This document shows, piece by piece, positions 10,860-12,708 of a stretch of DNA of 41,044 nucleotides; position 1 is the stretch's first letter; each line of letters starts with the position of its first letter. The notes beneath the pieces are model-generated. The model was not told where the DNA came from, ran no database searches, and saw only the letters and a list, made by a program, of their open reading frames with translations. The position numbers and the translations under genes are program-made. The stretch is from positions 1 to 41,044 of the forward strand of contig JAFEFW010000008.1 of assembly GCA_018240405.1 (NCBI GenBank). The letters are read 5' to 3'. Source of the DNA: Pseudomonadota bacterium (GTDB lineage Bacteria > Pseudomonadota > Alphaproteobacteria > Acetobacterales > Acetobacteraceae).

Positions 10860-11420
10860 TTGGCGACCGATGCACGAACGAGACGATTTGAGCTTCTGGC
10901 GATGCCGCATCTCGATGCGGCGTTCAACCTGGCGCGCTGGCTCACGGGCAATGCGACGGATGCCGAGGATGTGGTGCAGGACGCCTACCTGCGCGCCTTC
11001 CGCTATTTCGACGCTTTCCGGGGCGATAATTTCCGCGTCTGGCTGCTGACGATCGTGCGCAACAGTTTCCTGACCTGGGTGCAGGACAACCGCTCCGGCC
11101 GCCTCGTGTTCGACTCTGCGGTGACCGATTTTGCCGGTGCTGATACCTGGCCCGACCCGTCGCCGGGGCCGGAAGCCATGCTGCTGGAGCAGGTGGACCG
11201 CGACACGCTGGCGACACTGGTCGCGCACCTGCCGGCCGAGTATCGGGAGGTATTGATCCTGCGTGAGATCGAGGACCTGTCCTACAAGGAGATCGCCCAG
11301 GTCGCCGGTGTTCCCGCCGGCACCGTCATGTCCCGCCTCGCCCGCGCGCGGCAGGCCCTGCGCACGGCGTGGATGCAACAATCCGGGGAGGGGAAGGTGC
11401 GTGGCGGGAGGAAGTCATGA
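10860..11420 (+). CDS. ECF-family RNA polymerase sigma factor
   Basis: The 186-residue protein has sigma region 2 (about residues 18-85: NLARWLTGNATDAEDVVQDA and WLLTIVRNSFLTWV) and region 4 (about 120-175: YREVLILREIEDLSYKEIA followed by GVPAGTVMSRLARARQAL). There is no region 1 or 3, as in the RpoE/ECF class. The start is a TTG at 10860 with GGGGAAGG five bases upstream; the next in-frame ATG would trim 14 residues. The stop overlaps the anti-sigma start (ATGA). The mirrored promoter pair implies it drives its own gene and the phosphoesterase-cupredoxin operon. Confidence 0.92.
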   Translation: MATDARTRRFELLAMPHLDAAFNLARWLTGNATDAEDVVQDAYLRAFRYFDAFRGDNFRVWLLTIVRNSFLTWVQDNRSGRLVFDSAVTDFAGADTWPDPSPGPEAMLLEQVDRDTLATLVAHLPAEYREVLILREIEDLSYKEIAQVAGVPAGTVMSRLARARQALRTAWMQQSGEGKVRGGRKS

Positions 11421-12169
11421 ACCACAAGACCGCCATGACCCTGCTGCCCGCCGGTGCGGACGGACAGCTTGGGCCATTCCGCCGCTTCCTGCTTGACCGC
11501 CATATCGCCCGGTGCACATCGTGCCGCGCGGAGCAGGAGGCGCTGCACGCGCTCAGCACGGTTGTGCGAACCAGCCTGCCCGTGCACCGGGCGCCGCCCA
11601 GCCTCGCGGCACGGATCGGCGCGGCGTTGCCGCGTGAGGCACCGCCGGAGCCTGTGCGAACGCGGCTTTTATGGCCGCAGCTTGGTTTTGGCGTCGGCGG
11701 CGCACTGGCCGGGGCCGCGCTGACGTTGGCGCTGATGTGGACACCCGCTGCGCCGGATCGGCTGGCGACCGAGGCTGTGGCCAACCATGTGCGCTCAATG
11801 CTGGCGGACCACCTGACCGACGTGACCACCAGCGATCAGCACACGGTCAAGCCATGGCTTTCCGCTCGCCTCGATTTCTCGCCTGTCGCCAAGGATTTCA
11901 CGGCGTCCGGATATCCGTTGGTGGGCGGCAGGCTGGACTACATAGACGGCCACCAAGCAGCCGCCATCGTCTACCGGCGCGACCGGCACATCATCAATTT
12001 GTTCGTCTATCCGTCGAATGAGGCGGACGCGCTGCCGCGGATGGAGCAGCGCGACGGGTTCCATATCGTGCGCTGGCGCAGCGGTGGCCTGAAGTATATC
12101 GCGGTATCGGACGTCGAGGCCGCGCAGCTTCAGGGGTTCGTCACCTTGGTGCGGCAGGCGGCGGGATGA
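11417..12169 (+). CDS. Membrane anti-sigma factor
   Basis: The 250-residue protein is translationally coupled to the ECF sigma gene by a 4-base overlap, with GGGAGG before the ATG. The N-terminal cytoplasmic part has the H-x3-C-x2-C pattern HIARCTSC of zinc-binding anti-sigma domains. A single membrane helix follows at about residues 95-115 (LGFGVGGALAGAALTLALMW). The remaining 130 or so residues are periplasmic and resemble the sensor portion of transmembrane anti-sigma factors. It would hold the sigma factor at the membrane and release it on envelope or redox stress. The signal is unknown. Confidence 0.88.
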   Translation: MNHKTAMTLLPAGADGQLGPFRRFLLDRHIARCTSCRAEQEALHALSTVVRTSLPVHRAPPSLAARIGAALPREAPPEPVRTRLLWPQLGFGVGGALAGAALTLALMWTPAAPDRLATEAVANHVRSMLADHLTDVTTSDQHTVKPWLSARLDFSPVAKDFTASGYPLVGGRLDYIDGHQAAAIVYRRDRHIINLFVYPSNEADALPRMEQRDGFHIVRWRSGGLKYIAVSDVEAAQLQGFVTLVRQAAG

Positions 12170-12246: not shown

Positions 12247-12474
12247 CTATTCTTGCGGCGATGCAGCATCAAGCCGGCGCATTGCCTTCACGCCAGCCTC
12301 CGCCAGACGGTCCGCGACATAGTGCGCGCAGACCCCAGCGAGGTAGGTCTCGGCCAGCCGCGTCATGCCGGCACCACGGCTGTCCCGAATGGCATCGGCC
12401 AGGATCCGACACAGATCATCGTCCGGAACCGGTTCGAGATGCTCTGACAGGCGAAGGTCGAGCGGCGGCTGCAT
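12247..12474 (-). CDS. Small SOS-box-controlled protein of unknown function
   Basis: This is a 75-residue protein, mostly predicted helical and acidic at the N-terminus, running from MQPPLDLRLSEHLEPVPDDD to a C-terminus rich in Arg and Ala. It has two cysteines (22 and 49). I recognise no family. The frame is open further upstream, but a consensus alphaproteobacterial LexA box ends six bases before ATG 12474 and overlaps a possible -10 box. The mRNA would therefore start at or very near the ATG (leaderless), and no ribosome site is seen. A DNA-damage-induced regulator such as a division inhibitor is conceivable, but function is not shown. It lies downstream of tRNA-Arg on the same strand. Confidence 0.6.
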   Translation of the reverse strand: MQPPLDLRLSEHLEPVPDDDLCRILADAIRDSRGAGMTRLAETYLAGVCAHYVADRLAEAGVKAMRRLDAASPQE

Positions 12475-12479
12475 GGGCA

Positions 12480-12494
12480 GAACATAACACGAAC
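12480..12494 (-). promoter_or_regulatory. LexA (SOS) box
   Basis: GAACATAACACGAAC, or GTTCGTGTTATGTTC on the minus strand, is an exact GTTC-N7-GTTC direct repeat. This is the LexA operator of Alphaproteobacteria. It lies immediately before the minus-strand start at 12474 and overlaps the proposed -10 box, where bound LexA would block RNA polymerase. Confidence 0.7.
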
Positions 12495-12508
12495 ATTGCT
12501 GCGCGCAA
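12481..12508 (-). promoter_or_regulatory. Promoter of the SOS-box gene
   Basis: Minus strand TTGCGC (12508-12503) and TATGTT (12486-12481) with a 16-base spacer resemble sigma-70 -35/-10 boxes. Start of transcription would fall at about 12474-12476, so the message would be leaderless. An 8-base inverted repeat CATAACAC/GTGTTATG (12483-12490, 12512-12519) also spans the site. Confidence 0.45.
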
Positions 12509-12631
12509 CCAGTGTTATGGCTGCACGATGTCGTTCCATAGCCCGACCCGACTTGGCCGTGGCCAGGGTCACGCCGCGCGTTATCCATGCGCGTGTTGCT
12601 GCCGGGCGGGAGGGGCGGCCATCTGACGGAT

Positions 12632-12708
12632 TGGTGTCCCCGGCGGGATTCGAACCCACGGCCCCAGGATTAGGAATCCTGTGCTCTATCCTGCTGAGCT
12701 ACGGAGAC
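12632..12708 (-). tRNA. tRNA-Arg, anticodon CCT
   Basis: The minus strand folds as a full cloverleaf of 77 bases including an encoded CCA (12634-12632). The acceptor is GTCTCCG pairing with CGGGGAC (one G-U), followed by TA and D stem GCTC/GAGC. The anticodon stem is CAGGA/TCCTG with loop TTCCTAA, giving anticodon CCT (12674-12672). The T arm contains GTTCGAATC. This tRNA reads the rare AGG codon. Confidence 0.95.

Follow-up and report, generated by a model that had tools for sequence, protein, structure and literature searches.

A predicted LexA-controlled small gene in Acetobacteraceae and its relationship to a protein family often encoded beside imuA, imuB or dnaE2

Results

We analyzed a 41,044-nucleotide stretch of Acetobacteraceae DNA, hereafter the window, in which a small gene of 75 codons plus a stop codon begins with ATG on the minus strand (12247..12474). 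Homologues support the gene, and their alignments place a conserved family core at around residues 13-67. Its neighbors lie outside the system described here: a tRNA-Arg (CCT) gene upstream (12632..12708, minus strand) and, converging on it from the plus strand, a gene for a putative anti-sigma factor with a zf-HC2 domain (11369..12169), which is itself preceded by an ECF sigma factor gene (10860-11420). The reading frame of the small gene is also open further upstream, and a mechanical list of open reading frames starts it at the ATG at 12588, giving 113 amino acids. We favored the 75-codon version because the relatives begin nearby and a LexA-like box immediately precedes the ATG at 12474.

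This box, an exact GTTC-N7-GTTC (GTTCGTGTTATGTTC, 12494-12480, minus strand), is predicted to bind LexA and is conserved upstream of relatives. A sequence-only reading of the locus had reported it in front of the 75-residue frame, and we found it there, on the minus strand. The same reading counted six bases from box to ATG; the box does lie just before the start codon, but the spacer has five bases (TGCCC) and six is reached by counting to the A. The overlap with a -10 element also proved correct: read directly from the sequence, the -10-like hexamer TATGTT (12481..12486, minus strand) sits within the box, with six bases between it and the ATG, and a weak -35-like hexamer, TTGCGC (12503..12508, minus strand), lies across a 16-base spacer. 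Given this placement, the transcript is expected to start at or adjacent to the ATG. A stricter consensus promoter scan called no site at these two hexamers, and no Shine-Dalgarno-like sequence was found before the ATG. Alphaproteobacteria are known to make leaderless transcripts (PMC7566282).

GTTC-N7-GTTC is the LexA consensus motif stated for Caulobacter (PMC12700426). It occurs once in the window, where 0.82 occurrences are expected, and at least once in 56 of 100 shuffles. Because one match in 41 kb is what chance predicts, the case for SOS control must depend on the relatives of the gene. In the whole genome the motif is found 179 times, compared to 83 for the reversed pattern, and in 36 of the 179 boxes the second GTTC is preceded by a T (21 when this pattern is reversed). 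Among these 36 are the boxes of imuA, where the box overlaps the ATG, and of a second small protein (L035). Exact boxes also lie upstream of lexA and recA. Since lexA, recA and imuA are all boxed, GTTC-N7-GTTC can be used as an SOS motif here; the fetched stretch of dnaE2 contains no exact box.

Other genes of this genome lie close to boxes of the same kind. Five proteins of 194-255 residues (L011, L012, L029, L037 and L042) are similar to each other over approximately 100 N-terminal residues, as measured by blastp within a set of six sequences, where E-values are optimistic and the link of L042 is weak. For four of them (L011, L012, L029 and L042) a GTTCN6TGTTC box lies 16-67 bases from the start, with the gene read opposite to the box, and the box of L037 overlaps its start; the box of L029 is identical to that of the window gene. 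Pfam returned nothing above noise for L011, L029, L037 and L042, and the five genes are a candidate second SOS family. Near further exact GTTCN6TGTTC boxes we observed genes whose products resemble, by eye, radical-SAM DNA-repair proteins, ribonucleotide reductase and a topoisomerase IV subunit (L023/L024, L036, L033 and L044). Two small cysteine-containing open reading frames, L028 and L043 (84 and approximately 97 residues), lie directly behind LexA-like boxes and match no family above noise.

A protein search of 60 genomes, including that of the window, returned a homologue of the window protein in nine of the 59 others, all from the same genus and each 65-68 residues long. All nine sister genes have a box at -39, exact in three and with one mismatch in six; as background, the loci collected up to that stage contain 0.017 exact boxes per 96 positions, with real boxes counted. 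In all nine, the TTG of the box can act as -35 and TAGCNT or TAACCT as -10, with the ATG approximately six bases further on. The ratio dN/dS is 0.03-0.28 among 16 sister pairs with more than 80% identity and, judged from these values, the sister frame is under purifying selection. Between the window gene and its same-genus sisters the ratio is 0.39-0.79, near saturation, and in the single tree that we built the window copy has a long branch. Together with the frequency of the motif by chance, these values speak for the possibility that the box is a fortuitous match on a gene outside SOS control, or that the window copy is a paralogue in decay. A related idea, that the window copy has a shifted promoter and is decaying, was dropped when closer relatives were found to share its layout.

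These closer relatives came from searching 398 genomes of the same family with a profile of the window group, which returned matches in 39 genomes and 19 genera (own genome included; some matches are genes of the wider family X described below). Of the 44 places listed, 26 were new and were examined, four were already known, and 14 were left out, mostly the weakest matches and several of them belonging to the X set. In 23 of the 26 new members an exact box lies no more than 90 bases upstream of the start; the span tested in the other three (L201, L207 and L220) contains none. Seven share the layout of the window gene, with the box at -20 to -22 (L198, L211, L212, L213, L215, L217 and L221), although starts were picked throughout by script as the nearest ATG and some box distances may be off; in L198, L211, L212, L213 and L221 the box likewise contains TATGTT. 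The nearest relatives of the window protein are L197 and L202-L204 (54-62% identity), while L198, at 52% identity, starts 12 residues before a conserved EPVP, compared to 13 in the window protein.

Conservation of both box and frame in relatives had been set beforehand as a test that could refute SOS control. Both are conserved, with boxes in 9/9 sisters and exact ones in 23/26 new members, and the comparison supports the leaderless layout proposed by the sequence-only reading. By its exact box, conserved in relatives, the window gene has what is on sequence grounds the promoter of an alphaproteobacterial LexA regulon member. A chance box or a decaying paralogue, already refuted for the most part, is in our view extremely improbable: L197-L200 and L202-L204, all from other genera, are 51-62% identical to the window protein, with open frames and exact boxes, the start of L198 falls in nearly the same place, the box position is common to seven members, and the tree with the long branch predates the finding of the closer relatives from other genera.

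The second small protein with a T-type box, L035, is matched by homologues in 23 of the 34 genomes searched within the genus (own included), and profile-profile comparison joins its family, which we call X, to the window group. Aligned with hhalign, ten rows of the window group and 14 rows of X share 61 collinear columns (E = 3.5e-10), and 25 window-group rows, none of them from the nine sisters, share 62 columns with 91 X rows (E = 1.5e-12). Against single X proteins, the best blastp E-value of the window protein is 3.4e-05, in a small set. The window protein is, by these full-length collinear alignments, a divergent member of X, an unnamed Acetobacteraceae family. As the earlier reading had stated, no recognizable family emerged for it, with nothing above noise in Pfam, NCBIfam, PHROGs or PADLOC; X proteins have no Pfam match above noise either. 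The L035 profile matched 123 of 398 genomes of the same family and four of 289 of the class (own genome counted in both). The window genome carries three X-family genes, the window's included, each solitary and under an exact box. In a genome of another family of the class we also observed a distant X-like protein (L078), with the exact box GTTCACTAAATGTTC at -32.

To describe the surroundings of X we used 181 loci, which cover part of the X matches among those listed; their 147 hits reduce to 119 unique genes, a count that takes in fragments and near-copies. In 79 of the 119, imuA, imuB or dnaE2 lies no more than 300 bases away on the same strand, in the arrangements imuB-X-dnaE2 (43), X-dnaE2 (13), X-imuB (9), imuB-X (8) and X-imuA (6); 55 genes had first been classed as solitary, and 15 of these were reassigned to X-imuA or X-imuB. 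The cassette genes were identified with NCBIfam and Pfam: the error-prone DNA polymerase model scores 1395 bits for the cassette polymerase, ImuB has IMS domains, and the ImuA model matches with an E-value of 2e-14, below its cut-off. Annotated plasmids show such associations too: the order is imuB-X-dnaE2 on those of Komagataeibacter saccharivorans and of Gluconobacter oxydans, it is X-imuB-dnaE2 on that of Roseomonas gilardii, and in all three X is annotated as a hypothetical protein. On one Gluconobacter oxydans plasmid (L183), a gene for an SOS response-associated peptidase lies near the X-bearing imu cassette, on the opposite strand.

The distribution of boxes follows these arrangements. 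None of the 51 X genes behind imuB has an exact box, compared to 40 of the 68 elsewhere, that is, leading an operon or solitary (38/66 without the window gene and L035, which was found through its box); the genes are related, and therefore these counts are not independent samples. A box with one mismatch only, weak evidence in either class, precedes 13 of the 68 and 11 of the 51, and 15 of the 68 lack a box in the span that was tested; of these and the three unboxed subgroup members, several look truncated. Thirty of the 40 exact boxes lie at -38 to -40 in one orientation, and in most the TTG of the box can act as -35. A Shine-Dalgarno-like sequence precedes two of the 40 boxed genes, compared to 16 of the 51 behind imuB.

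At the level of genomes, imuB is present in 114 of the 123 X-bearing genomes, 299 of all 398, and 185 of the 275 in which X was not found (P-value 9e-09 for the last compared to the X-bearing, Fisher test, uncorrected for kinship and with genome lists compiled by hand). Conversely, X was not found in 185 of the 299 imuB-bearing genomes with one profile, which divergent copies can escape; X is therefore inessential to the mutasome. When X was compared with its neighbors, hhalign gave no credible match to ImuA, ImuB or DnaE2 (the best was one DnaE2, E = 0.028, 19 columns, probability 1.8).

The operon link holds for the wider family. Beside the window gene itself there is no imuA, imuB or dnaE2, which sets it apart from components of the cassette, and these genes have no match in the ten first loci of the window subgroup or in the 26 new ones (flanks mostly 1.5-2 kb). 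As no subgroup member was found beside a cassette, the link depends on the family at large and may fail to extend to the subgroup. In the window genome, imuA-imuB and dnaE2 lie on two separate contigs (C111 and C199), where we found no X-family member; the window protein and the two other solitary members would therefore act in trans.

We also considered that X might be a gene of the mobile-element kind, such as one for addiction, for anti-defense or for a small regulator, that travels with SOS cassettes on plasmids. X does occur in 30 plasmid records, nine typed as mobilizable and four as conjugative, and its copy number is variable, with up to seven matches per genome. Nevertheless, purifying selection is strong (median dN/dS 0.125 in 38 pairs of X genes behind imuB), and we noticed no constant partner except the imu genes. 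One X query had no match in phages, PADLOC gave none and PHROGs none above noise; within the window subgroup, two queries had no match in plasmids, and the L212 protein had no relative in viral contigs. We regard the mobile-gene explanation as quite unlikely. The X-like copies L121, L130, L134 and L153 have unusual ends: in L121 and L153 the X part continues into a longer frame, and L134 has no clear start. L130, L134 and L153 all come from one genome (G335), which has seven X matches, and some of the copies look disrupted.

Since damage-induced small proteins of alphaproteobacteria include cell-division inhibitors, the earlier reading had suggested such a role for the window protein, one that we compare to that of SidA or DidA of Caulobacter. 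The protein is indeed small and LexA-boxed, SidA (29 residues) and DidA (71 residues; PMC4211646) are small as well, and hydropathy rises to a membrane-like 1.6 in four of 27 subgroup proteins. However, the maximum in the window protein is 0.72, which indicates no transmembrane segment, only one of 102 X proteins reaches 1.6, and in the wider family the gene is set beside imuB and dnaE2. The suggestion thus found no support, as the window protein has no transmembrane segment and operon structure ties its family to error-prone DNA synthesis, and we consider a division inhibitor highly unlikely.

Structure models show a pair of helices flanked by short strands. Their confidence is moderate (pLDDT 77.5 and 77.8), and comparison with known folds found no match. 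Over its first ten residues the model of the window protein is of low confidence (mean 54), as would be the case for a short linear motif. Motifs that bind the sliding clamp follow the consensus QxxLF or QxxLx[LF], the latter including the hexapeptide-like QxxLxL. QxxLF occurs within the first 14 residues of four of the 27 subgroup proteins, a pattern noticed post hoc, with a shuffle mean of 0.08 and none of 2,000 shuffles reaching four; two of the four carriers, L217 and L221, are close relatives. The window protein has QPPLDL at residue 2, which resembles the hexapeptide form, but this form is not enriched in the subgroup, where 519 of 2,000 shuffles reach the observed count. The motif is absent from all 102 X proteins and from most subgroup members. 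These observations bear on an explanation in which a flexible N-terminal motif would dock on DnaN and control polymerase exchange or replication, apart from the Imu proteins, and we find it doubtful. A further idea, that X resembles the N-terminal motif of RecA (helix plus strand, as in the ImuB motif that binds ImuA), was dropped when hhalign gave 9.05 against a shuffled median of 9.28, in an insensitive test with one RecA sequence.

Discussion

Our results point to X as a small soluble protein of the SOS regulon with a functional tie to translesion synthesis by ImuA-ImuB-DnaE2, a reading to which we assign a probability of approximately 0.6. The window copy is best read as a stand-alone, putatively leaderless version of X. 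LexA on the box would block the -10 region; after DNA damage, cleavage of LexA would allow transcription to start at the ATG, and the leaderless mRNA would be translated. LexA binding, induction and the leaderless start are what the promoter layout and its conservation suggest for the window gene. More tentatively, as the step is drawn from operon structure, the X protein may then take part in translesion synthesis as an accessory or a regulatory subunit. It is conceivable, though we consider it speculative and rather improbable, that X exists as operon-internal and as stand-alone leaderless LexA-controlled forms, and that in some lineages the latter gained an N-terminal clamp-binding motif and set the access of translesion synthesis to the sliding clamp after damage.

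The closest known system is the LexA-regulated ImuA-ImuB-DnaE2 (ImuC) mutasome, in or beside whose cassette X is encoded and with which it shares the SOS motif. X would be an additional small protein of this system, and the window copy differs in lying away from the cassette. The available text of PMC6511836 (2019), PMC12926913 (2026) and PMC3765255 (2013) contains no mention of an X protein. No such protein appeared, by title or beginning of the abstract, among the matches listed for literature on imu genes, LexA or SOS small proteins, leaderless LexA control and clamp-binding SOS proteins, a search mostly of open papers rather than subscription ones that leaves absence unproven.

Three groups of known proteins invite comparison. 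YolD is small, SOS-induced and usually encoded beside a Y-family polymerase gene (PMC6511836), as are UmuD-type partners; the window and X proteins match no such family in Pfam or NCBIfam, and their partner would be the ImuB-DnaE2 system. SidA and DidA are alike in being small damage-induced alphaproteobacterial proteins, induction being predicted for the window protein. Both are transmembrane and act on the FtsW/I/N complex, SidA under LexA control (PMC4211646), unlike the window protein, which has no membrane segment. Standalone ImuB-C domain proteins are likewise encoded with error-prone polymerases (PMC3765255). The two ImuB proteins that we scanned, however, keep their C-terminal region (weak DUF6504 match), and X has no Pfam match above noise.

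What is new here is an unnamed LexA-boxed family attached to a mutasome operon. X is part of this operon across many members of a single bacterial family and persists besides as LexA-boxed genes of its own, which makes it a candidate for a missing subunit or a brake of the mutasome. The window gene, with a LexA box over the -10 of an apparently leaderless gene, may in addition offer a clean natural case in which to study tight SOS repression.
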